Virus record (IMG/VR): IMGVR_UViG_3300042511_000879
Location: 172,072-236,071 of that record
DNA: 64,000 nt
Source: a virus
Reading direction: 5' to 3' (one strand)
Shown: piece after piece, positions 27,153 to 54,743 of the stretch
Numbering within the stretch: position 1 is the stretch's first letter
How the letters are laid out: each line of letters begins with the position of its first letter
Translations under genes and position numbers: made by a program
Notes under the pieces: generated by a model
Database searches by the model: none
Told to the model about the DNA's origin: nothing
Seen by the model: the letters and a program-made list of their open reading frames with translations, nothing else

Positions 27153-27162
27153 AATTTGTTTG

Positions 27163-27235
27163 TACCCCTAGAAGAATTCGAATCTCCATTTAACATCTTA
27201 GAAGGATGTTGCATTTCCATTTATGCTATAGGGGC
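27163..27235 (-). tRNA. tRNA-Arg(UCU)
   Basis: Acceptor GCCCCTA/TAGGGGT, anticodon stem ACATC/GATGT with loop CTTCTAA. Reads AGA, the preferred arginine codon type in this AT-rich genome. Confidence 0.9.
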
Positions 27236-27330
27236 ATAAAGCCAATCCCGTAGATTGGCCGCTCGGCTTTAGGTACCAAGTTTGCAAGAATAAATCTCTG
27301 ACCAGGACTTATACCCTCTGGGTATCGTCG

Positions 27331-27402
27331 TGTGTTTCCGGGTTTCGAACCCTGTTCTCTACATTCACAGTGTAGCACTTTACCGATTAAGCTAGAAACA
27401 CC
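27331..27402 (-). tRNA. tRNA-His(GUG)
   Basis: Acceptor GTGTTTC/GAAACAC with an extra 5' G as expected for His, stem CTACA/TGTAG, loop CTGTGAA, T-loop TTCGAAA. Confidence 0.9.
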
Positions 27403-27409
27403 ATATTAG

Positions 27410-27480
27410 TCTCGAATAGTGGAATCGAACCACTGCCCTTTGCATGTAAAACAAATACGCTACCATTACGCCAATTCGAG
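27410..27480 (-). tRNA. tRNA-Val(UAC)
   Basis: Acceptor CTCGAAT/ATTCGAG, loop TTTACAT, T-loop TTCGATT. No encoded CCA. Confidence 0.85.
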
Positions 27481-27544
27481 TTTTGAGAGGGTTAGGTATG
27501 GCTCACCTCTCCGTGACTGACGTCCTACCTTAACAGTCTAATTG

Positions 27545-27617
27545 TTCCCCCGGATGGCCTCGAACCATCTACCCCTCCGTTAAAAGCGGAGTGCCCGTCC
27601 ACATGAGCTTCGAGAGA
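27545..27617 (-). tRNA. tRNA-Lys(UUU)
   Basis: Anticodon stem CTCCG/CGGAG with loop CTTTTAA; acceptor TCTCTCG/CGGGGGA uses G-U pairs. T-arm GATGG/CCATC. Confidence 0.85.
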
Positions 27618-27627
27618 TTGTATTTTG

Positions 27628-27699
27628 TTGCGATAAGGAATTTCGAAATCCTGACATCTCCAATATGAGCGGAGTACTCTTCCTCTGAGTTATATCGCA
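27628..27699 (-). tRNA. tRNA with CAU anticodon (Met or Ile2), overlapped by a CDS
   Basis: Acceptor TGCGATA/TATCGCA, stem CTCCG/TGGAG, loop CTCATAT. The first 10 nt of this tRNA also encode the last codons and TAA stop of the endonuclease-like gene at 27690-28322. Confidence 0.85.
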
Positions 27700-28322
27700 T
27701 TTTTTAATTTTTCAAATTCACTTAATACAAATTTTTCATTATATCTACCAGAATCTTTAATTATATAAGGAACATATCCACATTTAATTATTTCTTGGAT
27801 TTTTATCCTATCTCTGTTTTGGACCTGTTCTAATGAATGATTTTTGGTAATTTTTTCATAGTGCCATTTACCATTCCATAAAATAGCAATTTTTATTGAA
27901 GGTATTATAACGTCTGCATCCCATCCATTAAATATACATTCATTTGTTAAAATATTTTTAAATTCATTTTGACATAATTCAGCAAATAGTATTTCATTTT
28001 TGCTTCTTTTATTTTGAGATTTAGCGCTATTTAATCCACCTCTTCTACTGTATTCTAAATGATTAGGATGTGCAACTGCACATGATTTAGAACAAAATTT
28101 AGAATTTCTTTTGTGCCATTTTACCGTAAATTCATTTTGACATGACATGCAACATAGTTTAACGTCAGGGTTTGCATTGGCACTTATTTTTTTAGAAACT
28201 TTTTCATTAATTTCTTTTCTTTTGGCTTTAGTACTAAAACCTCTAGAACATTTTGTTGAACAGAATCTGCCAGAACCATAAGTTCCTTCATGTTCGTTGT
28301 TGCAATTTTCACATGTTTTCAT
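27690..28322 (-). CDS. Homing-endonuclease-like protein (EDxHD/Vsr-type) inside the tRNA array
   Basis: A 210-residue protein with two N-terminal zinc-finger-like units (CENCNNEHEGTYGSGRFCST-KC and CCMSCQNEFTVKWHKRNSKFC-S-KSC) followed by a nuclease domain: SKNEILFAELCQNEF, FNGWDADVIIPSIKIAILWN and GKWHYEKITKNHSLEQVQNRDRIK, then P-Y-I-I-K-D. The E...D-x-x-I...W-N-G-x-W-H-Y pattern matches Vsr-like EDxHD homing nucleases of phages. Its base composition is lower in G than its neighbours (many A-rich lysine/asparagine codons), consistent with later insertion. Its stop lies within the downstream tRNA. Confidence 0.75.
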   Translation of the reverse strand: MKTCENCNNEHEGTYGSGRFCSTKCSRGFSTKAKRKEINEKVSKKISANANPDVKLCCMSCQNEFTVKWHKRNSKFCSKSCAVAHPNHLEYSRRGGLNSAKSQNKRSKNEILFAELCQNEFKNILTNECIFNGWDADVIIPSIKIAILWNGKWHYEKITKNHSLEQVQNRDRIKIQEIIKCGYVPYIIKDSGRYNEKFVLSEFEKLKNAI

Positions 28323-28325
28323 ATT

Positions 28326-28336
28326 ATATATATCTA
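28326..28336 (-). promoter_or_regulatory. Class B (late-type) promoter motif before the endonuclease-like gene
   Basis: AGATATATATAA on the minus strand, directly upstream of the ATG at 28322. It may give the endonuclease its own expression independent of the tRNA transcript. Confidence 0.4.
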
Positions 28337-28367
28337 CATATTATTCGAACTTTTAAATTTGCCTTAG

Positions 28368-28440
28368 TAGTCTATGAAGGATTCGAACCCTCATCTTCCG
28401 ATCCGTAGTCGAATGTTACTATCCGTTGAACTAATAGACT
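28368..28440 (-). tRNA. tRNA-Arg(ACG)
   Basis: Acceptor AGTCTAT/ATAGACT, anticodon stem TTCGA/TCGGA, loop CTACGGA. The ACG anticodon normally needs deamination of A34 by TadA to read CGN codons; the host would supply that. Confidence 0.85.
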
Positions 28441-28445
28441 AATTG

Positions 28446-28520
28446 TGTCCTTGGGAGGGATCGAACCTCCATATCTCTCGGTTATGAGCCGAGCGCCTTC
28501 ACCAATTTAGCTACAAGAAC
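28446..28520 (-). tRNA. tRNA-Met-like (CAU)
   Basis: Acceptor GTTCTTG/CAAGGAC, stem CTCGG/CCGAG, loop CTCATAA, T-loop TTCGATC. The G-rich anticodon stem is consistent with either elongator Met or Ile2. Confidence 0.85.
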
Positions 28521-28527
28521 CTTACAG

Positions 28528-28598
28528 CACGGGTGGAGGGATTTGAACCCCCATCGCTGGTGTTGGAGACCAGAATGCTACCGTTGCACTACACCCGT
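28528..28598 (-). tRNA. tRNA-Trp(CCA)
   Basis: Acceptor ACGGGTG/CACCCGT, stem CTGGT/ACCAG, loop CTCCAAC, discriminator G. Confidence 0.9.
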
Positions 28599-28674
28599 AA
28601 ATATGTAGGATATCGCTTAACCTACCAGGTTTTACCCATTAAATCATATTAAATGACCCAAGACGATTTTTTTG

Positions 28675-28765
28675 TAGATATGGGCAGAATTGAACTGTCC
28701 GGCACGTCCATGTTCCTTGCAACTGCGAAGTACTGAGGATTGCTCTACCACTGAGCTACATATCT
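28675..28765 (-). tRNA. tRNA-like element with abnormal anticodon arm
   Basis: Acceptor AGATATG/CATATCT and a normal D-arm (TAGCTCAGTGGTAGAGC) are clear, and the T-loop TTCAATT is recognisable, but the centre is about 15 nt too long and no standard 7-nt loop with U33 closes a 5-bp stem. Could be a type II tRNA, one with an insertion, or a decaying gene. Isotype not assigned. Confidence 0.45.
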
Positions 28766-28772
28766 GACCTAG

Positions 28773-28850
28773 TTGCGATTAGAGGAGTTGAACCTCTGGA
28801 GGGTATATCTACCGATACGGCTCATGAGACCGTCTCTGACCAACATCGCA
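28773..28850 (-). tRNA. tRNA-like element, CAU anticodon, shortened D-arm and long variable arm
   Basis: Acceptor TGCGAT/ATCGCA, anticodon stem ACGGT/GCCGT with loop CTCATGA and a good T-arm (AGAGG/CCTCT). The D-arm is only 3 bp and the variable arm carries an extra GGTA/TACC hairpin. Possibly a decaying or specialised Met/Ile2 tRNA. Confidence 0.55.
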
Positions 28851-28854
28851 TTTT

Positions 28855-28970
28855 AGAGCCACGTAACAGGGATCGAACCTGTCTACCGAATCTTGTCAAA
28901 TACTCTCATCTTGTCGACCTTTCAGAGGCATATTCTATTTAACTCTTCATGATTTTCCACCTTACGTCTA
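28855..28970 (-). other. tRNA 3'-half-like sequence (T-arm and partial acceptor)
   Basis: A canonical T-arm (ACAGG TTCGATC CCTGT) is followed by TTACGT, which can pair with an upstream ACGTAA about 95 nt away, but the segment between lacks a normal D- and anticodon arm. Best read as a degenerate tRNA or one broken by an insertion. Confidence 0.4.
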
Positions 28971-29029
28971 AAGTGTTCCATACATAACTAGTTAAAAGAT
29001 CCAGTTGTCACCATTGACTACGGACATTT

Positions 29030-29105
29030 TGGTGGACCCTGTAGGAATCGAACCTACTCCTCTAGTTCTTCAGACTAGCGTACGCACCAGCTATACCAAA
29101 GGTCC
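29030..29105 (-). tRNA. tRNA-Phe(GAA), with encoded CCA
   Basis: Acceptor GGACCTT/AGGGTCC, stem CTAGT/ACTAG, loop CTGAAGA; discriminator A followed by CCA in the DNA. It is the only canonical tRNA here in which I see an encoded CCA end. Confidence 0.9.
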
Positions 29106-29144
29106 ATAAAAGTATAATATCCGTTATAATACCGACCCAGTTTC

Positions 29145-29182
29145 CCAGGACCAGGTTGGATTCGAACCAACATCTCTTTTTT
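29145..29182 (-). other. Isolated T-arm-like tRNA fragment
   Basis: GTTGG TTCGAAT CCAAC is a perfect T-arm, but it directly follows tRNA-Tyr on the minus strand with no room for a 5' half. Probably a tRNA remnant left by recombination within the array. Confidence 0.5.
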
Positions 29183-29185
29183 ACG

Positions 29186-29267
29186 TGGGCAGCAGTGGAC
29201 TCGAACCACTCCCTTTAGAGACCGATTTTACAGACCGGCTGCCGTATCCGAACGACTTTTGCTACCC
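29186..29267 (-). tRNA. tRNA-Tyr(GUA)
   Basis: Acceptor GGGTAGC/GCTGCCC, stem CCGGT/ATCGG, loop CTGTAAA, class II variable region as in bacterial tRNA-Tyr. Confidence 0.9.
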
Positions 29268-29273
29268 TTATTG

Positions 29274-29347
29274 TAGTGATATTAGGAATCGAACCTAAAA
29301 CCTCTTCGGTATCAGCGAAGTGCTCTAACCAATTGAGCTATACCACT
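29274..29347 (-). tRNA. tRNA-Ile(GAU)
   Basis: Acceptor AGTGGTA/TATCACT, D-arm TAGCTCAATTGGTTAGAGC, stem CTTCG/CGAAG, loop CTGATAC. Confidence 0.9.
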
Positions 29348-29411
29348 AGTTGATTACCATCTGACTCTTTTCGAACTTTGCAGGCTCGTATCATTCCTTA
29401 ATGGTAATTTG

Positions 29412-29483
29412 CTCTTCCCCTAGGACTCGAACCTAGATAAAATGATTAACAGTCATCCGTAATAACCTTTATACGAGAGAAGA
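29412..29483 (-). tRNA. tRNA-Asn(GUU) copy 1
   Basis: Acceptor TCTTCTC/GGGAAGA, stem GATGA/TCATT, loop CTGTTAA, T-loop TTCGAGT. Confidence 0.85.
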
Positions 29484-29489
29484 ATTTTG

Positions 29490-29561
29490 AGGACCCTGAG
29501 AATTTCGAAATCTCGACCCGTTGCCTAACAAACAACCGCTCTGCCTCTGAGCTAAAGATCC
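29490..29561 (-). tRNA. tRNA-Asn(GUU) copy 2
   Basis: Acceptor GGATCTT/AGGGTCC, stem GTTGT/GCAAC, loop TTGTTAG. The T-stem has one mismatch. Sequence differs strongly from copy 1, so it is not a recent duplicate. Confidence 0.75.
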
Positions 29562-29584
29562 AATTTAGTCTTTTGCTTACCTCT

Positions 29585-29650
29585 AAATAATTTACTTTGC
29601 CAACCGGGCCTTAGTTCCCGGCGCTTACCAATCATACTGGAGTAATTATT
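29585..29650 (-). other. Degenerate tRNA-like element without T-arm
   Basis: Minus strand shows a 7-bp outer stem (AATAATT/AATTATT), a D-arm-like GATTGGTAAGC and a strong hairpin CCGGG/CCCGG with loop AACTAAGG, but no TTCRA T-loop. May be a tRNA remnant or a structured spacer. Confidence 0.35.
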
Positions 29651-29657
29651 CCTTTGT

Positions 29658-29729
29658 TGCGGGTGAGGGACTCGAACCCCCGACCTTAAGCTTATGAGGC
29701 TCACGAGATACCAACTTCTACCAACCCGC
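29658..29729 (-). tRNA. tRNA-Met-like (CAU), third canonical copy
   Basis: Acceptor GCGGGT/ACCCGC, stem TGAGC/GCTTA, loop CTCATAA, T-arm GGGGG TTCGAGT CCCTC. Initiator hallmarks (three G-C pairs in the anticodon stem) are absent, so elongator Met or Ile2 is likelier. Confidence 0.85.
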
Positions 29730-29735
29730 TATTTG

Positions 29736-29824
29736 TTTCCCTTGAAGGACTCGAACCTTCATCAACTTACGTTGAGCAACCACATTCAATAGTGGTCCAT
29801 GTTTGCCAATTTCACCAAAGAGAA
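29736..29824 (-). tRNA. Class II tRNA with apparent 8-nt anticodon loop (Ser-like)
   Basis: Acceptor TTCTCTT/AAGGGAA, long variable arm TCAAC/GTTGA, T-arm GAAGG/CCTTC. The anticodon stem ACCAC/GTGGT encloses TATTGAAT, eight nucleotides instead of seven. With the usual loop register it would read as Ser(UGA); eight-nt loops are typical of frameshift-suppressor tRNAs. Confidence 0.65.
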
Positions 29825-29928
29825 AACTACTAAATAAATTTCGTCTGCAAAGTACTCTTTATCATATGTAGTAACCTTATAGTCCCGATAGAATTTGCAG
29901 ATTCTATACTTGCCTATCCAGTTTGTTG
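29825..29928 (-). other. Spacer with tRNA-Cys-like hairpin
   Basis: Contains the hairpin TAGAA-TCTGCAAA-TTCTA, resembling a Cys(GCA) anticodon arm, inside a weak outer stem (GCAAGTA/TACTTTGC), but no D- or T-arm. A full tRNA-Cys is present at 31431-31500, so this is probably a remnant. Confidence 0.3.
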
Positions 29929-30002
29929 CCGAGATGACGGGACTCGAACCCGTGACCTTCGCCGTGACAGGGCGACATTGTTACCAACTCTACTACACCT
30001 CG
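29929..30002 (-). tRNA. tRNA-Asp(GUC)
   Basis: Acceptor CGAGGTG/CATCTCG, stem TCGCC/GGCGA, loop CTGTCAC, discriminator G. Confidence 0.9.
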
Positions 30003-30011
30003 ATTATTTTG

Positions 30012-30087
30012 CGGTCCCGGAGGGTTTCGAACCCTCATTTTAGAGCAGTGACAGTGCAATTCCCCGACCAATGGGGCTCACAAGACC
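30012..30087 (-). tRNA. tRNA, probably Asp(GUC) copy 2, weak anticodon stem
   Basis: Acceptor GGTCTTG/CGGGACC, T-arm GAGGG TTCGAAA CCCTC, loop CTGTCAC. Only three pairs (GCA/TGC) of the anticodon stem form, so function and isotype are less certain. Confidence 0.65.
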
Positions 30088-30092
30088 TTTTG

Positions 30093-30164
30093 TGGAGCTA
30101 CCGGGATTCGAACCCGGAATAACAGAATGCAAATCTATCGTGATGCCAATTTCACTATAACCCC
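30093..30164 (-). tRNA. tRNA-Ala(UGC)
   Basis: Acceptor GGGGTTA/TAGCTCC including the G3-U70 wobble that marks alanine tRNAs; stem ATAGA/TCTGT, loop TTTGCAT. Confidence 0.9.
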
Positions 30165-30203
30165 AAATGCACTTCCTCGACTGTTTAGTGCGAACCAACG
30201 TAG

Positions 30204-30275
30204 TATTGCGTATGGGATTCGAACCCATGCCTCATCATAGAAAGTGATACGTGTTTACCCCTTCACTAACGCAAC
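30204..30275 (-). tRNA. tRNA-Glu(UUC)
   Basis: Acceptor GTTGCGT/ACGCAAT, stem TATCA/TGATG, loop CTTTCTA, T-loop TTCGAAT. Confidence 0.9.
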
Positions 30276-30281
30276 ATTTAG

Positions 30282-30353
30282 AGCCTCTACAAGGAATCGA
30301 ACCCTGTTATCTTGTGTACAAAACAAGCGCATCACCATTTATGCTTTAGAGGC
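30282..30353 (-). tRNA. tRNA-Thr(UGU)
   Basis: Acceptor GCCTCTA/TAGAGGC, stem CTTGT/ACAAG, loop TTTGTAC. Confidence 0.9.
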
Positions 30354-30359
30354 AAATCA

Positions 30360-30428
30360 ATTAAAGTGGGTGTTTGAATCCCTTCTCCGCTTTATCAGTG
30401 CGGTGCTTTACTACTAAGCTAACTTTAA
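30360..30428 (-). tRNA. tRNA-Ile(GAU) copy 2, unusual T-arm
   Basis: Acceptor TTAAAGT/ACTTTAA, D-arm TAGCTTAGTAGTAAAGC, loop CTGATAA. The T-arm is short (GGG/CCC with a large loop), so it may be decaying relative to the Ile copy at 29274-29347. Confidence 0.65.
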
Positions 30429-30434
30429 TCCTTG

Positions 30435-30507
30435 TACCCAGGGAGGGATTCGAACCCTCAATATCTAGTTCCTAAGACTAGCGTGTCTACCGTTCCACCA
30501 CCAGGGC
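30435..30507 (-). tRNA. tRNA-Leu(UAG) with short variable region
   Basis: Acceptor GCCCTGG/CCTGGGT, stem CTAGT/ACTAG, loop CTTAGGA. The variable region is only five nt (ATATT), whereas leucine tRNAs normally carry a long arm. Confidence 0.8.
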
Positions 30508-30566
30508 AAATCTAATTCTATGCTCACAATATGTAGTTCTATGAATTAGTAACAATCTCATCTGTG

Positions 30567-30642
30567 TCTGGATAGCAGGATTCGAACCTGCGTGCTCTAG
30601 CGTCCAAGGCCAGCGAGATAAACCGGGCTCCTCTACATCCAG
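30567..30642 (-). tRNA. tRNA-Pro(UGG)
   Basis: Acceptor CTGGATG/TATCCAG, stem CTGGC/GCTAG, loop CTTGGAC, T-arm GCAGG/CCTGC. Confidence 0.9.
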
Positions 30643-30652
30643 AAATTATTTG

Positions 30653-30723
30653 TTGCCTGTGGAGGTAACGATCCTCCTCCGATGCTGTCAAAGAGCATTG
30701 TACTACCTTTATACGAACAAGCA
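30653..30723 (-). tRNA. tRNA-Gln(UUG)
   Basis: Acceptor TGCTTGT/ACAGGCA, stem ATGCT/AGCAT, loop CTTTGAC. The D-arm is short (3 bp). Confidence 0.85.
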
Positions 30724-31102
30724 TTATTTCAAACTTGGTTTTTAACTAGGTTTCGGAGCGCATCACTTGTATTTTCAAAGTAACGGAACATTCTTAAAGC
30801 TTATTGAATGAACTGCCTAATTAAATTTCCAGTATCACCGCGAGGAGGTGTTTGATTGATACCGCTGAGCTTCGTTATTCTCCGGAGAATATTCTCCTTT
30901 GGATATTCGTTTCATGCTACTTCTATGTTTATCGGCCGATTCCATATTTTCGCCATTATACAATTTATTTCTTTTCGTCATCCCCTACTGCCCACTTGGA
31001 TGCGGTTACGAAAGCGTTCCAGTCTGTTCACGATACAATTTACAGTACCTCGAGAGCGATTTCCCGTTAAGAACCGATACTTGTGACCGGCAATCAATTT
31101 AG
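30724..31102 (-). other. 379-nt spacer in the tRNA array
   Basis: No tRNA fold is seen here. The segment is richer in G and C than the intergenic average and contains inverted repeats such as TCTCCGGAGA near 30879-30890. It might encode a structured RNA or the 48-residue frame listed separately. Confidence 0.4.
30835..30981 (-). CDS. Possible small protein, 48 aa (low confidence)
   Basis: An ATG-to-TGA frame (M-T-K-R-N-K-L-Y-N-G-E-N ... N-T-S-S-R) of strongly hydrophilic composition in the otherwise empty spacer. Use of two CGG codons is unlike neighbouring genes. It may be chance; the region could be an RNA instead. Confidence 0.25.
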   Translation of the reverse strand: MTKRNKLYNGENMESADKHRSSMKRISKGEYSPENNEAQRYQSNTSSR

Positions 31103-31178
31103 TTATCATGACAGGATTCGAACCTGCGATTGGAAGACTATTACCTCTACCCGTGCTAACCATCTACACTACATAATA
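31103..31178 (-). tRNA. tRNA of unassigned isotype
   Basis: Acceptor TATTATG/CATGATA, D-arm GTG...CAC with ATGGTTAGC, T-arm GCAGG TTCGAAT CCTGT all fit. The central 25 nt do not form a standard anticodon arm with U33; CTTCCAA is present but lacks a stem. Possibly a damaged tRNA-Gly. Confidence 0.5.
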
Positions 31179-31242
31179 GCTACACTGTGGTATATCAATT
31201 TAATACCCTTAATATTTACTCAATGACGAGCAGTATAGTTTG

Positions 31243-31314
31243 AGCAGATAGGGAGAATCGAACTCCCATCTTTAGATTGGAAGTCTAAAGTAATGGCCAT
31301 TATACGATATCTGC
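31243..31314 (-). tRNA. tRNA-Gly(UCC)
   Basis: Acceptor GCAGATA/TATCTGC, stem TTAGA/TCTAA, loop CTTCCAA, T-arm GGGAG/CTCCC. First tRNA downstream of promoter 11. Confidence 0.9.
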
Positions 31315-31346
31315 AAATTTGGTTATCAGTATGTCAAAGAACCTTT

Positions 31347-31422
31347 GTTCTAATTTGTTATGTAAATATATAACAATTCTTTCAATCGGTAAAACTTTAA
31401 GTGTTAAAATTATGTTAAAGTT
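31347..31422 (-). promoter_or_regulatory. Class A promoter 11, drives the tRNA array
   Basis: Minus-strand blocks TTTTAACACT, 5 nt, TTTTACCG, then TATATTTAC. It sits between tRNA-Cys (upstream) and tRNA-Gly, and is the only class A element found in the 4.5-kb array, so the array may be one long transcript. Confidence 0.8.
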
Positions 31423-31430
31423 TTAATTTG

Positions 31431-31500
31431 AGTCTCCGTACAGAATCGAACTGTATCTGTAGCGTTTGCAATGCTACCGGTCGCCATAACCATCAGAGAC
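31431..31500 (-). tRNA. tRNA-Cys(GCA)
   Basis: Acceptor GTCTCTG/CGGAGAC, anticodon stem TAGCA/CGCTA (one A-C mismatch at the loop), loop TTGCAAA. It lies upstream of promoter 11 and downstream of the terminator at 31511-31544, so its expression may depend on readthrough. Confidence 0.85.
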
Positions 31501-32902: not shown

Positions 32903-33445
32903 TTATAAATCTATTTTTTGTTTAGAGCCATCTGTCATACTATAAGTAATATGCAGCGGTTTTAGTGAATGTTCTCCTGAATTTAGTATCTTTAAATATT
33001 CAGAACCTTTACCTGGTTTTAAGTAGGCAACAGTCATGTGGGGCATATAATCTGGGTAGTCCGTAGTGTGCGGAAGTTCACTAAGTGATTTATTTGCATT
33101 ATGAAGATTATCACCTTCCATGTCAAATTTTAGGACATCAAATTTATCATTTTCAAAAAGAGAAAGATTGTAGGCTTTGCACTCTCCGAGTTTAATCCCT
33201 TTTAATTTGTCTGCAACCTGATCAACAGTTACTTCAGGGTGAAGTCCGTATAATAAAGTACAGTGTGGTTCATTTTCAAGACCGTAACTTTCATCAGCTT
33301 CTACTGTGAAAATATCTTCAGGTCTTATTGATTGATGTAGAGTTGCCATTGCTGGAAAGTCAAAATATAACATTGCACAATTAAAATCATGTGTTGTTTT
33401 TATTTTTTCATTTAAGAACTCTTCGAATAGTTTAATTCTTTTCAT
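32903..33445 (-). CDS. 2H phosphoesterase-like protein with capsid-targeting-like tag
   Basis: Start chosen at 33445 (MKRIKLFEEFLNE) because this N-terminus is shared by three other genes; the longer frame adds eight residues. The 180-residue protein carries two H-x-T motifs, P-H-C-T-L-L-Y-G-L and P-H-M-T-V-A-Y-L-K, hallmarks of 2H phosphoesterases that act on 2'-5' or cyclic phosphodiesters. The tag resembles the T4 capsid-targeting sequence, with an L-N-E cleavage-like site after residue 13, suggesting packaging and injection. T4 Acb1, an anti-CBASS enzyme, is also a 2H phosphoesterase, so degradation of cyclic oligonucleotides is a testable idea. tRNA-repair chemistry is the alternative. 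Confidence 0.75.
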   Translation of the reverse strand: MKRIKLFEEFLNEKIKTTHDFNCAMLYFDFPAMATLHQSIRPEDIFTVEADESYGLENEPHCTLLYGLHPEVTVDQVADKLKGIKLGECKAYNLSLFENDKFDVLKFDMEGDNLHNANKSLSELPHTTDYPDYMPHMTVAYLKPGKGSEYLKILNSGEHSLKPLHITYSMTDGSKQKIDL

Positions 33446-33950
33446 TATTTTCTTTTTTATTAATTTCATCCATTTTTTTCATAGCCCAATCAACTCCTTC
33501 ATCTCCACCCCAAATCAACCATGCAACATATCCATTGTCTTTCCACGGTTCTGATTTATGTTCTGGTGCTATTTTCGAGTTCTTTCTATGTCGATTAAAT
33601 TGTGCCATTCGGGAAACTACATCTTGCGAAAGTTTTTCTCCTTTTGCCAACTGATTTGCGCGTTGCCATCCGACTGGAGTACCTGCAGTTACTTCATCAC
33701 GTCCATATTGGTCTCTCCAATCCAGGGCCTTCTTTGCATTCTCCTTTGCGGCAGCAGGATAGTCATTGTAAGTATCTTCTGATTCTAAAACAACAGATTC
33801 TTGCGCGTCCTCCCAGTCCTCTTCATCGGGATAATCTTTATCACCTGGCTTTGCAGGTTTTTCGCCGCGCTTTCTTTTAGCCCATATATTGTCCCAAAGA
33901 CCCTTCTTTTTTTCGTCTAGGAACTCTTCAAATAATTTTACTTTTTTCAT
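33432..33950 (-). CDS. Hypothetical tagged protein (capsid-targeting-like N-terminus)
   Basis: A 172-residue protein starting MKKVKLFEEFLDE, the same tag as its neighbours. It then has KLWDNIWAKRKRGEKPAKPG-like charged text (LWDNIWAKRKRGEKPAKPG, DKDYPDEEDWEDAQE) and a conserved-looking R-M-A-Q-F-N-R-H-R-K-N ... AWLIWGGDEGVDWAMKKMDE segment seen in phage head-associated proteins. Function unknown; likely virion-internal if the tag works as inferred. Overlaps the 2H gene by 14 nt. Confidence 0.6.
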   Translation of the reverse strand: MKKVKLFEEFLDEKKKGLWDNIWAKRKRGEKPAKPGDKDYPDEEDWEDAQESVVLESEDTYNDYPAAAKENAKKALDWRDQYGRDEVTAGTPVGWQRANQLAKGEKLSQDVVSRMAQFNRHRKNSKIAPEHKSEPWKDNGYVAWLIWGGDEGVDWAMKKMDEINKKENNEKN

Positions 33951-34891
33951 TCTACTTCAAATCTTTTTGGGTCAAAGTCCAGGGTTTTCTTAATCATATA
34001 GTCACTCAATTTCTCGAGCTCGGTGTTAGCCGCTGGATTTACATCACGACCGTAAAAATCATTAAATAATTGTCTGTATGCCTGAACTGTAGAATCAAAT
34101 GGTACTCCCGGCTGACTGTTACTTTCAATTATATATAGTTTTCCAGATTTATCTTCCATAATATCAAAACAGATATATGGCAAGTCTGAGAATATTTTAC
34201 CGAATTTTTCAACTAGGTCATTAAATTTCTGTGGTATTTTGGTAACGTCCTTTTTAATGTATTTAAACATCATTTGTTCGTCTCCTTTTCCTTCTCCAGA
34301 TTTTGCTTTAGCATTCAATGGGTTTCTTTCCATCCAGAAAAATGGTTTACCCTTAAATGTAATCAATCTGTGTTCGGCTGCTTTGTCAATATATTCTGAA
34401 TAAACATCCAACTTCGAATGGTCTGCATCGTCCCATGATTTCTGGTCCTTAAAGATTTGAATACCAAGTCCTGAGTGTCCTTCTGCTGGTTTTCCAATTA
34501 ATGGGAATCCAATTTTTAGGGCATCTTTTTCATTATGCGCAGTTTTTGGGATGTTTTCATCACCATCAACCAACTTATGAAATTCTGCCTTGGAACCAGA
34601 TTGTTTGATATGTTCTGGTAGGTTATAGACATTTTCTTTTTTAATTAACCCTTCATCTAGGAGCTTTTGAGTTACTTTAGAATTGTATGTAAGGATTGGG
34701 TATTCTGAATTGATGTTAATGTCTTTGTAATTATCAAGTGTTACCTGTACAAAGAAATTATCTCCGGCGAAGTCTTTATAAGACCACCATCTATGCCCAC
34801 TATCAGGATTAATAGCCAAATAGATTTTATGCAAATCGGAATTGTCTTCCTTCTCTGCAATAAACTGTTCAAATAATTTAATTCTTTTCAT
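33947..34891 (-). CDS. ATP-grasp-like ligase with capsid-targeting-like tag
   Basis: A 314-residue protein with N-terminal MKRIKLFEQFIAE tag, followed by an ATP-grasp domain: FPLIGKPAEGHSGLGIQIF (lysine and glycine loop that contacts ATP), Y-I-D-K-A-A-E-H-R, and a C-terminal YICFDIMEDKSGKLYIIESN with the acidic/Asn pair that binds Mg-ATP. ATP-grasp enzymes join a carboxylate to an amine or thiol, for example peptides or tubulin-like tails. The substrate is unknown. The tag suggests delivery into the host with phage DNA. Confidence 0.75.
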   Translation of the reverse strand: MKRIKLFEQFIAEKEDNSDLHKIYLAINPDSGHRWWSYKDFAGDNFFVQVTLDNYKDININSEYPILTYNSKVTQKLLDEGLIKKENVYNLPEHIKQSGSKAEFHKLVDGDENIPKTAHNEKDALKIGFPLIGKPAEGHSGLGIQIFKDQKSWDDADHSKLDVYSEYIDKAAEHRLITFKGKPFFWMERNPLNAKAKSGEGKGDEQMMFKYIKKDVTKIPQKFNDLVEKFGKIFSDLPYICFDIMEDKSGKLYIIESNSQPGVPFDSTVQAYRQLFNDFYGRDVNPAANTELEKLSDYMIKKTLDFDPKRFEVE

Positions 34892-34894
34892 GTA

Positions 34895-34904
34895 TTATAT
34901 ATCT
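34895..34904 (-). promoter_or_regulatory. Class B (late-type) promoter motif before the tagged genes
   Basis: AGATATATAA on the minus strand, overlapping the stop region of the nuclease-like gene and 3 nt from the ATG at 34891. If active, the transcript would be nearly leaderless; it would place the tagged genes under late control. Confidence 0.35.
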
Positions 34905-46134: not shown

Positions 46135-46725
46135 CTATACCTTTGGTTTACCTAACATTACTTTTTCATGGGCTCCTCCACCTATAGTTCGACTATACCA
46201 ACCTCCGCCAGTTCCACCGTCTAGGTTTCCAATCCAATCGACCTTTTTACCCAAGACCTTTTCTACTGTTTCTTGGTCGGTTACAATAGGTACTTGGTAC
46301 TTATTAATTAAGATTTCGGCAATTTTACCAGAAACTTCTATATAATATCCAAGTTGTTTTAATTCTTTTCCTCGTCTATCCATATAATCTCTCTTAGCAT
46401 CTTTGGTTCCATCATGGCCAACTCCTGAGAATTTAAGTCCAAATCGGGTTTTTTCACCAAACATGATAACATCAAAATCATTACTGCCGTGAATATCTAT
46501 TCCCTCCCAATAGTTCCAATCAGGGTCTTTAAATACATCACTAGGTGATTGTACCTTGATATGTCCTCCAATCTCAGAGTACGCTGTACTAATAAGATTA
46601 AAGAATTCCTTTTCTAATTCTGTATCTTTAGTCGGTTTTAATATGACTGGTTTGTTTTTCTTAGGATTAAAAAGCTCTCCGCTTCTCTCTTCTATAAATT
46701 GTTCATATAGTTTAATTTTCTTCAT
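46135..46725 (-). CDS. Hypothetical tagged protein (capsid-targeting-like N-terminus)
   Basis: A 196-residue protein that starts MKKIKLYEQFIEER, the same tag as at 33-35 kb. The body reads VILKPTKDTELEKEFFNLIS, YWEGIDIHGSNDFDVIMFGE, TRFGLKFSGVGHDGTKDAKR and DWIGNLDGGTGGGWYSRTIG; the last part is glycine-rich. No family recognised. If packaged it would be an injected effector of unknown target. Confidence 0.6.
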   Translation of the reverse strand: MKKIKLYEQFIEERSGELFNPKKNKPVILKPTKDTELEKEFFNLISTAYSEIGGHIKVQSPSDVFKDPDWNYWEGIDIHGSNDFDVIMFGEKTRFGLKFSGVGHDGTKDAKRDYMDRRGKELKQLGYYIEVSGKIAEILINKYQVPIVTDQETVEKVLGKKVDWIGNLDGGTGGGWYSRTIGGGAHEKVMLGKPKV

Positions 46726-51866: not shown

Positions 51867-52421
51867 TTATGCTAGAACTTCTTTCCAAGCATCACATCTC
51901 CATCCTACTTCTAATGTAGCAGCATCCTTAGAATCGTAATTTAATTCAGTAGTAAAACCTAAAGCTGAAGAAATTTGGCAATCTTCTAAAGTTACTGTTC
52001 TATAAATATCTCCAGCTCTGTTGAACTGTACGATAACAATAGTACCTACGTAATCTTTTTTAAGACCCATTGTACCAGTATTCGGATCGTATCTTAAGTT
52101 ATACCATTGTCTCATTGCTTTGTATAAATAAGCTTGATTTGCTTCATTTAAGTTTAATGAGAAGTTAATGGTTACATCAACTGCAGTTCCATCAGGCATA
52201 CCAGCGAACGATCTAGTAACCCATTTGTATTTTTGTTCTACTGCAGCAATGTCTTTATATAATTCTAATCCTGAGATTGAATTAACGTGCTGTAATAAAA
52301 GTGGAGCATCTGCAACACCAGCTGGTGGAAGTATTGTAACTTCAAACAGGTTAGGCTGGATTGGTTCAAAATTTCTACCTTTTCTAGACGTTTGGTCTTG
52401 ATTATAGTGTGGTAATCCCAT
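51867..52421 (-). CDS. Tail tube protein (gp19-like)
   Basis: A 184-residue tail tube protein, size close to T4 gp19 (163). Contains PNLFEVTILPPAGVADAPLL at the N-terminus, FAGMPDGTAVDVTINFSLNL, W-Y-N-L-R-Y-D-P-N-T-G, and FNRAGDIYRTVTLEDCQISS, the conserved hallmarks of T4-type tubes (AlkW-N-L-x-Y-D; D-C-x-I). It polymerises into the rigid inner tube. Gene lies directly downstream of the sheath gene, as in T4. Confidence 0.85.
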   Translation of the reverse strand: MGLPHYNQDQTSRKGRNFEPIQPNLFEVTILPPAGVADAPLLLQHVNSISGLELYKDIAAVEQKYKWVTRSFAGMPDGTAVDVTINFSLNLNEANQAYLYKAMRQWYNLRYDPNTGTMGLKKDYVGTIVIVQFNRAGDIYRTVTLEDCQISSALGFTTELNYDSKDAATLEVGWRCDAWKEVLA

Positions 52422-52454: not shown

Positions 52455-54743
52455 TTATAGGTTACCTGATTGAATTTCTCCAGTATTTAAAACTGTTGTT
52501 CTATGAACTACAATTTCTAAACCTTTAACTGGTTCTACGTAAGTATCAATTATACCCATATTGTTATCGATAATCTCATTAGTGTTATTCGTAGAGTCCA
52601 TTACATTTTTAAACTCATAAATACCATTATCTTGTTTAACACCTTGTAAGAATGAATCTGCAAGGGTCTTGATTTCAAGTCTTGTTTGTGCAGTGTTAAA
52701 TTCAAATACGTAATCTTTAAGAATATTTGCCATACCATCTTCGATGTAAATAAGTACCTCTCTTACGTGAGCAGAAGAAAGTGCAGATTTAATAGATTGT
52801 TGCGCAGTTTTATTACCTAAGATAGTTAAACCTGTTCCTCTTTGGAATACAATTGGATTGTAACCAAATGGCTCTAAAATATCTCTATCACCTTTGTCAA
52901 AAGAATATTCAACTCCTTTAACGTTTGTACCAGATACAACTCCTCTTCTTGGACCAGCAACGATTGACCATGGAAGGGCGTTCGTGTATTTGTCGATGTA
53001 GTTGTTAGCAACATAAGCAGCTGGAGGAACAATAATGTCTTTTCCATTGTCGCTTACAATTAAACCAGGTCCGTAGTAGAATGCATAATTTGCACCTTCA
53101 TTTATACTTGGTAGAGCATATATTTTAGTAGGGTTTTTATCTTGATTACCACCATCTGCAATATAAGCAGTATCAAAAGCTCCATTTGCATCTGTGAAAG
53201 ATGGGTCTGTAGATTTTTTGAAATCTTCAATTGTTGGTGCATTTAAGATTGCGGCAGCATTTTGTCTATCTTTTGCTAATTGAGAAAGATTGCGTTTGTT
53301 GTTTAAACCATTCACATCAAAAGATGTAAAAGTATCTACAACATATCTAAAATCAATAATGTCTTTGTCGATTAGGGCATCATAGATTCCATTACCTCCA
53401 GAAAGAACAGATAAATAGTCGCTTATTTCTTTTCCAGTTATATTTGCTTTTTGTAATACAAATGTCTTATAAACTAGAGAAGCTGATTCATAAGATTTAA
53501 TAATTCTACTTTGGTAATCCGGTACTACATCAGTATAGACTGTAAAAATAGTATCTCCGCCAACTATTGCTTTTGCAATTCTATTAACTCTTGCAAGTCT
53601 AGTTCCAAGATTCTCAGAATCAACGTATTGTCCAACTGTAATTGGGAATGTTGTAGGCTCATCTCCAGTCGTATAAGTTACAGTGAAATTTGAACTACCT
53701 AATGTATTGTCAGTTCCTATAGTAGCGCCATCAGTTATAAAATCAAATATAGTTTCTCTATCACCTGCAGGAACATAGTGAGATAGTAATTCATAAGAAT
53801 TAGCACTATTATGAACATGTCCTACAAAATCAACTTGAGTTCCTTGTTCGTCCATAACTGCATCTTCATTAACTGCACAGAATAAACCAGTTCTTCTAGC
53901 TTCTGCGTTAATAGTTGATTCAATATATAAGTTTCTACCTTCAAGGTCTTTAAATCCTGGTAAGATAGAACCTGTGTATTGTGCAATTAAACTAACCTGT
54001 CTAAGGTTTGCAAATTGTGCAAGTTTTGTTTTATCTAAACCGTCTGCTGTAAAATAAGCAGAATAGATTGGGTCATTTATCATTGCAGCAGCATCGAATT
54101 CTCCTTTGAATACAAATACATCAACCATAAAATCTGACATTTTATCGAAATCATTTAAGTATTCTGGAACATTTCCAACACCATACCATTCTCTTGCAGT
54201 TAAGTCAAATTCTTTAACTTCTTGAGCCTGTCTTACGATGATTGTGATTGGTTCTTGTTTAATATTAACAAAGTTTAAGACGTGATCGTTATCAGGAACT
54301 ATAGTTGCTAATGTTTCAGCATCTGAAGGAACCATGAATTTATCATTATCAAAGAAATCTGCGTATCCTGAATTACCACTATCTGATGTAATGTTAACTG
54401 CTCCAGCACCTCCACAGGTTACTGGACTTTGGTAAGATGCAATATCTCCAGGAACAAATTGCTCAAGATTTAGTGCTAATATAGGACCTCTTGAAAGTGC
54501 TTCGATACAAGATCTGTGGAAAAACATTCCCTTTTTTTCTAAACTTTTATCAATGTTTCCAAACACATTTACAAGAGTTTCAACTGAATCAATCAAAACC
54601 GGTGTGTTGTAAGGACCTTTTTTAGAGTGACCTACCATTAATCTAAGAGTCTCGACATTTATATTTGCTGTCTGAGATTTATCAAACTCAAGTCTATAAA
54701 CTCCTGAGCTCTTAAAATTTAATAATTGCGGACTTAGTGCCAT
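52455..54743 (-). CDS. Tail sheath protein (gp18-like)
   Basis: A 762-residue contractile sheath protein (T4 gp18 is 659). The N-terminus reads SSGVYRLEFDKSQTANINVE-like, then LMVGHSKKGPYNTPVLIDSV, the classic sheath start; the C-terminal half contains NPIVFQRGTGLTILGNKTAQ and a helix-strand end (YVEPVKGLEIVVHRTTVLNT), where conserved sheath strands bind neighbours. The insertion of about 100 residues in the middle is likely a surface domain. The call is secure from these motifs and the gene order. Confidence 0.9.
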   Translation of the reverse strand: MALSPQLLNFKSSGVYRLEFDKSQTANINVETLRLMVGHSKKGPYNTPVLIDSVETLVNVFGNIDKSLEKKGMFFHRSCIEALSRGPILALNLEQFVPGDIASYQSPVTCGGAGAVNITSDSGNSGYADFFDNDKFMVPSDAETLATIVPDNDHVLNFVNIKQEPITIIVRQAQEVKEFDLTAREWYGVGNVPEYLNDFDKMSDFMVDVFVFKGEFDAAAMINDPIYSAYFTADGLDKTKLAQFANLRQVSLIAQYTGSILPGFKDLEGRNLYIESTINAEARRTGLFCAVNEDAVMDEQGTQVDFVGHVHNSANSYELLSHYVPAGDRETIFDFITDGATIGTDNTLGSSNFTVTYTTGDEPTTFPITVGQYVDSENLGTRLARVNRIAKAIVGGDTIFTVYTDVVPDYQSRIIKSYESASLVYKTFVLQKANITGKEISDYLSVLSGGNGIYDALIDKDIIDFRYVVDTFTSFDVNGLNNKRNLSQLAKDRQNAAAILNAPTIEDFKKSTDPSFTDANGAFDTAYIADGGNQDKNPTKIYALPSINEGANYAFYYGPGLIVSDNGKDIIVPPAAYVANNYIDKYTNALPWSIVAGPRRGVVSGTNVKGVEYSFDKGDRDILEPFGYNPIVFQRGTGLTILGNKTAQQSIKSALSSAHVREVLIYIEDGMANILKDYVFEFNTAQTRLEIKTLADSFLQGVKQDNGIYEFKNVMDSTNNTNEIIDNNMGIIDTYVEPVKGLEIVVHRTTVLNTGEIQSGNL

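Follow-up and report, generated by a model that had tools for sequence, protein, structure and literature searches.

Why should proteins with no other resemblance begin with nearly the same peptide? The window analysed here is a stretch of 64,000 nucleotides, positions 172,072 to 236,071 and the end of the 236,071-bp metagenomic virus record IMGVR_UViG_3300042511_000879. An initial annotation had pointed to four minus-strand genes in it that share such a start, and had proposed that their products are packaged in the capsid, trimmed and injected with the DNA. All four open reading frames are present with the N-termini that it gave (Table 1). We examined the tag across the genome and its relatives, the protease that might cut it and the proteins that carry it. 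The polyproteins and the likely Acb1 identity of the 2H phosphoesterase, both described below, go beyond that annotation.

Table 1. Tagged genes, tags and promoter-like elements in the window (positions count from the first letter of the window; a slash marks the predicted cut here and throughout).
Feature	Position	Strand	Basis
Tagged 2H phosphoesterase, 180 aa, Acb1-like anti-CBASS candidate	32903..33445	-	PF23474, HxT motifs, predicted fold
N-terminal tag MKRIKLFEEFLNE of the 2H gene	33407..33445	-	sequence
Tagged protein, 172 aa, probably two modules	33432..33950	-	internal tag-like site; downstream module directly behind the tag in L041
Candidate internal cleavage site ESVVLE/SEDTYNDY in the 172-aa protein	33783..33800	-	corresponds to tag E13 of L041
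N-terminal tag MKKVKLFEEFLDE of the 172-aa protein	33912..33950	-	sequence
Tagged ATP-grasp-like protein, 314 aa	33947..34891	-	weak Pfam ATP-grasp matches; phrog_2599
N-terminal tag MKRIKLFEQFIAE of the 314-aa protein	34853..34891	-	sequence
Promoter-like GATATATAA before the three-gene tagged cluster	34895..34903	-	motif scan
Tagged protein, 196 aa	46135..46725	-	15-member tagged family in relatives
N-terminal tag MKKIKLYEQFIEE of the 196-aa protein	46687..46725	-	sequence
Tail tube gene with GATATATAA element (context, not cargo)	51867..52421	-	phrog_45, E 9.3e-9; motif 29 bp before ATG
Tail sheath gene with GATATATAA element (context, not cargo)	52455..54743	-	phrog_34521, E 1.6e-123; motif 36 bp before ATG

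The source phage

The record comes from a large T4-like phage (236 kb). Its head module is T4-like, with a portal (phrog_213, E 1.7e-69), a small acidic gene, a protease-scaffold fusion and a capsid protein of the gp23 type (PF07068, E 5.5e-41), and the minus strand carries 301 of the 339 predicted ORFs (at least 40 aa counted). The nearest relatives of the capsid protein are found in an uncultured 462-kb phage, Prevotella Lak phages, Sphingomonas phage PAU and Tenacibaculum phages, which makes a Bacteroidota host likely. Both ends of the record (1-2097 and about 233192-236071) overlap at 92-95% identity with an insertion, which suggests a circular map closed across strain variants. Within the window, 26 tRNA genes that together serve most amino acids form an array (27162-31500, minus strand) adjoining the tagged cluster.

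A 13-residue tag on unrelated proteins

The tag has the consensus M-K-x-[IV]-K-L-[FY]-E-x-[FY]-[LIV]-x-E over its 13 residues. The whole-genome scan that the initial annotation called for, carried out with a position weight matrix, returned 23 ORFs above 20 bits, every tag lying at an ATG start; the total is thus at least 23, with at least 19 beyond the original four. They cluster around 24-25, 36, 39-47, 99, 122-123, 148-151, 205-207 and 219 kb of the genome. The tag DNA pattern was found in at least 119 IMG/VR stretches, against 0 matches to a reversed-peptide control pattern across the whole IMG/VR collection, and had 0 matches in 84,980 prokaryote species genomes. Using a looser DNA pattern, 36 phage records gave matches on the coding strand only, and its reversed control had no match anywhere in the same records. 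Related metagenomic phage loci that were fetched contain 202 tagged ORFs versus 7 internal matches.

Taken together, the genes of this phage and its relatives comprise 225 tagged ORFs in 94 families with no body similarity behind the tag. The shared N-terminus is far beyond chance, and the earlier observation of a near-identical start on unrelated proteins now extends from four genes to 94 families. With one tag per family, there are 93 distinct DNA 39-mers and 66 peptides; from these many synonymous changes it follows that selection acts on the tag peptide. Glutamate occupies P1 in 93 of the 94 families, while P3 is leucine or isoleucine in 53, valine in 40 and methionine in one. The L/I-x-E ending that had been read as the T4 cleavage rule therefore holds for the glutamate but not as a strict rule at P3, where valine relaxes it. 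Both F/Y7 and F/Y10 are kept in 94 of 94 families, a count partly imposed by the search pattern; a tag found without that pattern (MQKLKSFDQFSTE, in L146) also has F7 and F10.

Beyond the exact form, the closest huge phage, LR756500, carries a variant tag series (MKYIKEYEDFINE/A, MKYIQTYKDFLIE/S and MKFLKSYEEFLNE/N). Tenacibaculum phage PTm1, which is cultured and related through its capsid protein, has no such series; no other cultured phage was found to bear exactly this tag either, and a search of open-access papers found none containing the tag string. Two other minus-strand genes of the genome (39522-39076 and 142134-141523) keep the front half of the tag (MKTIKLFEEF and MKKVKLFEEY) and have lost E13; their products are perhaps packaged without cutting. 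The tag also drifts, as seen in a 429-aa protein (genome 46536-45247, minus strand) whose start MKTRILNFNRFITE is atypical although its LR756500 counterpart bears a normal tag, MKFLKSYEEFLNE.

The prohead protease and the head core

The leader of T4 IPIII offers a direct comparison, as its first 10 residues are enough for packaging, with residues 4 and 7 controlling targeting and residues 8 and 10 controlling processing by gp21 (PMC9026906). The T4 packaging tag cited in the initial annotation, MKTYQEFIAE, is indeed what the T4 record reads for IPII and IPIII. Aligned from the cut site, Y4, F7, I8 and E10 of T4 fall on F/Y7, F10, L/I/V11 and E13, the most conserved positions of the tag.

A gp21-like prohead protease, which the packaging proposal had named as something to look for, is encoded in the genome. 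This S77 protease (genome 7432-5510; PF03420, E 1.4e-11; phrog_207, E 1.5e-40) is a protease-scaffold fusion, with LGELDHP and SSR as its His and Ser motifs versus LGELNHP and SSR in gp21. Among tagged contigs it has a match in 19 of the 28 above 60 kb and in 14 of the 16 above 100 kb, compared with 1 of 24 control contigs retrieved with an unrelated pattern, which are mostly smaller and make the comparison approximate. The two tagged contigs above 100 kb that gave no S77 match are possibly incomplete. A second S77-like ORF of 132 aa (PF03420, E 1.7e-8), separate from the head fusion, lies outside the window at genome 156684-156286 (minus strand); it is present in three related contigs, and LR756500 has it as a 135-aa frame.

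The tag is also found on a gene of the head core itself. Between portal and protease-scaffold, where T4 has gp67 and gp68, five relatives have a gene that bears the full tag (MKHVKLFEEFLSE, MKRVKLFEEFIKE, MKHVKLFEQFLKE), and in the present phage this gene reads MKIIKTFEEFTSSLQE/D. Three loci (L074, L086 and L112) have a cargo-type module inserted between the tag and the body of this gene, bordered from the core protein by a site such as DSVLSE/A or DRTNE/A. In the model of the tagged 2H protein, residues 1-18 have pLDDT below 50 and the body is folded.

A candidate late promoter

The promoter-like element GATATATAA has 27 copies on the coding strand of the genome and a single one on the opposite strand, most of them some 30-36 bases ahead of an ATG, with a closer 12-base copy before the ATP-grasp gene of the window. 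Downstream of it lie the protease, tail sheath and tail tube genes, a tail fibre gene, tagged operons, and the genes for the 913- and 1029-aa proteins. In the tagged IMG/VR loci, 133 copies lie on the coding strand versus 1 on the opposite, and tagged ORFs have the element in front of them more often (27/179) than other ORFs do (56/765; p = 0.002). From this distribution, GATATATAA would be a late promoter. The T4-type late promoter TATAAATA was also considered for the tagged genes and set aside, being not enriched before them, unlike GATATATAA.

Proteins behind the tag

The best-defined cargo candidate is the 2H phosphoesterase, for which profile, motifs and fold agree with the original assignment. 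It matches the PF23474 Acb1 profile with 31.3 bits (cut-off 27), and both motifs, H61xT63 and H136xT138, are invariant in all nine aligned sequences. The predicted model (mean pLDDT 81.7) has among its best PDB matches the penguinpox cGAMP phosphodiesterase (E 2.5e-5) and the FBB1 Acb1-3'3'-cGAMP complex (7t27, E 5e-5); identity to FBB1 Acb1 in the structural alignment is only about 21%, and a PDB sequence search with the family profile gave no match. Acb1 destroys CBASS signals using an HxT/HxT tetrad (PMC9117128), and on profile and model the protein of the window is likely an Acb1. A second possible ATG lies upstream of its gene at 33469 (188 aa), but in the relatives the protein begins with the tag. 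Relatives that have this gene also keep its tag, which was one of the points on which the packaging proposal had been made to depend, and the homolog in LR745206 has a tag-like start, MKLKKYKQFIKE/S. Some distant homologs, those of LR756508 and Maribacter phage Molly, lack a tag, which indicates that tag and enzyme are separable.

The label of effector enzymes, applied earlier to all four proteins, is thus well supported for the 2H phosphoesterase but not for the other three. The 314-aa protein, member of a tagged family of 12, reaches E 6e-6 at best with Pfam ATP-grasp profiles (below the cut-off) and E 1.9e-5 with phrog_2599 (S6 glutaminyl transferase), and a PDB sequence search gave no match. 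Neither the 172-aa nor the 196-aa protein has a Pfam match. Elsewhere, tagged families include ATP-grasp proteins, a P-loop protein and a nucleotidyltransferase with the motif GRFQPFHNGH (CTP_transf_like, E 1e-7), which in the present phage makes up the last part of a 623-aa protein, behind the site SVNLNE/A. In a PDB sequence search it had weak matches throughout, for the most part to phosphopantetheine adenylyltransferases; the tagged nucleotidyltransferases are possibly NAD-type.

Candidate polyproteins with tag-like internal sites

Long proteins of 1029, 913 and 831 aa look like polyproteins. The 1029-aa ORF (50520-47431) contains many sites of the ESVVNE, ESTVTE and ESVVTE type, mostly 50-110 residues apart. 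We counted 9 copies of the motif ES-x-[LIVMT]-[NTDS]-E in the 4,846 residues that tagged proteins comprise and 9 more in the other 63,217 residues, of which 8 sit in the 1029-aa ORF. Across its orthologs (L142, L143 and others), whole modules are lost or gained exactly between sites. Thus our sequence reads ELVVSE/SKEADEAS...ESTVSE/AFNRL where L142 has ELVVSE/AFNRL, and ESVVNE/GTKQF...ESVVNE/AEKF where L142 has ESVVNE/AEKF. In L151 the protein is 189 aa long and consists of a normal tag plus two of the modules. The 831-aa tagged protein of L129 starts with a 110-aa protein that is a separate tagged gene in the present phage (66% identical); its final part is the first module of our 913-aa protein (59% identical), and there is an E/S or E/A site at both joins.

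To compare such borders we collected cases in which a module that follows the tag directly in one protein lies inside the chain of another. E13 fell within 2 residues of an [LIVMT]-x-E in 23 of 33 cases, which are not all independent (4.9 expected). One of them is the 172-aa protein of the window, whose internal site aligns with the tag of L041 (MKRIKLFEEFLNE/SEETYNDY), with 75% identity behind it. The density of the strict [LIVM]xE is not raised in tagged proteins (15.7 versus 17.0 per 1000 residues in untagged ones), so the polyprotein argument is carried by the longer linker motif and the junction mapping. AlphaFold gave no reliable fold for the 1029-aa protein (pTM 0.26), with all sites in low-confidence stretches, as are 63% of its residues, and folded modules between sites are accordingly not confirmed. 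No Pfam family matched the 1029- and 831-aa proteins at E 0.01; the 913-aa protein has two weak, below-cut-off matches, neither to a peptidase.

Proposed mechanism and alternatives

The tag and its spread, its link to a head-core gene and the protease, the promoter-like elements and the exchange of modules at sites can be read directly from the sequences; from them we infer packaging, cleavage, injection and enzyme activity. The tag is very probably a capsid-targeting sequence of the T4 internal-protein type, by which cargo would be packed, cut and injected, and polyproteins diced. Mechanistically, the front half of the tag, with F/Y7 and F10, would dock late-expressed proteins in the prohead core, and its end, F-[LIV]-x-E, would be cut by the S77 prohead protease of the phage, freeing the mature protein inside the head for injection with the DNA. 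The same route would serve more than 20 cargo genes in one phage. In the polyproteins, where tag-like E-S-x-V-N/T-E sites part the modules, the same protease would dice the chain into cargo modules. The Acb1-like 2H phosphoesterase would then be a pre-made immune-evasion enzyme, ready before phage gene expression.

The tag could instead dock proteins in the prohead core and do nothing more, the tagged proteins being scaffold or structural parts that are cut and lost, and the polyproteins a shredded core like T4 gp22. The tagged gene between portal and protease does look like a core protein, with 32 acidic residues in 116, and T4 core proteins are cut to fragments, most of which leave the head (PMC9026906). 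However, the cargo has enzyme families without a scaffold role (2H phosphoesterase, nucleotidyltransferase, ATP-grasp), the 94 families vary from phage to phage, unlike structural parts, and the cut sites are not random but lie between modules known elsewhere as separate genes. We consider this account unlikely.

Far lower still is the probability that the shared N-terminus sorts proteins elsewhere (to a membrane, a phage compartment or an assembly site) and matches the protease rule at E13 by accident. Such a role would suit a short amphipathic helix, which the tag could form (helix 7-14 in a low-confidence model), but the tag is also on the head-core gene beside the protease, the T4 targeting and processing positions match it, and E13 aligns with internal sites at module borders. 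Least credible, by a small step, is a DNA or RNA element, such as a translation enhancer or a recombination seam, in place of a peptide signal. Mosaic gene exchange at tags and linkers is frequent, and homologous recombination at the repeats probably contributes to it, but third codon positions vary where residues are kept, as the 39-mer and peptide counts of the 94 families reflect, and we rejected a DNA-level or translation role on this codon variation.

A wider picture is also reasonably likely, though we hold it with less assurance. A clade of T4-like jumbo phages would carry a fast-changing stock of head proteins, with the tag and internal sites as a plug-in grammar. Single tagged genes, or polyproteins of up to a dozen or so modules diced at head maturation, would supply this stock, which would include anti-immunity enzymes (Acb1-like, possibly NAD-type nucleotidyltransferases) delivered before phage expression. 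The tag turns the search for injected phage proteins into a sequence search and marks about 94 mostly uncharacterised families as probably injected. CBASS-type immunity is triggered as infection begins, and an enzyme in the particle that destroys second messengers would already be at work at that moment. Dicing of polyproteins in the phage head, if true, would be a new route by which many small proteins are loaded, and chosen proteins could be packaged in phage particles with the help of the tag and linkers.

Comparison with known systems

In T4, three internal proteins share a leader, about ten are known across the T-evens, and IP1-3 inhibit type IV restriction enzymes (PMC12373910). As in T4 IPI, IPII and IPIII, the present tag is a short leader on unrelated proteins that ends in hydrophobic-x-E, accompanied by an S77 protease; its residues match those of T4 positions 4, 7, 8 and 10, and it is absent from the protein body. 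It differs in its length (13 residues versus 10), in its distinct front half MKxIKL and in tolerating valine at P3, and one genome has more than 20 tagged genes versus 3, with recognisable enzymes and polyproteins as cargo.

In phiKZ and SPN3US, a protease related to S77 cleaves many head and ejection proteins after Glu, and some propeptides are cleaved more than once (PMC9026906, PMC10052503). Cutting after Glu by a related enzyme is what we predict here from sequence. However, the propeptides of those phages, as described, have no single conserved short tag, and their multiple cuts remove propeptides and do not release cargo modules. Polyvalent proteins of phages and conjugative elements are multi-domain chains of 2 to 15 domains, predicted to be packaged and injected, whose processing is attributed to a built-in metallopeptidase domain (PMC5512222). 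The 831-, 913- and 1029-aa proteins resemble them in joining several unrelated domains, as shuffled modules, in one predicted-packaged chain, but neither a built-in metallopeptidase nor another recognised polyvalent domain was found, and the modules are parted by prohead-protease-like target sites. With the Acb1 of T4 and FBB1, the 2H protein shares the phosphoesterase fold and the HxT/HxT tetrad; it differs from the FBB1 enzyme in its low identity, in the capsid tag and in an activity that is a candidate one here. By analogy, the system would work like the T4 internal proteins at a larger scale and combine this with a multi-domain layout, in which cutting would fall to the prohead protease.
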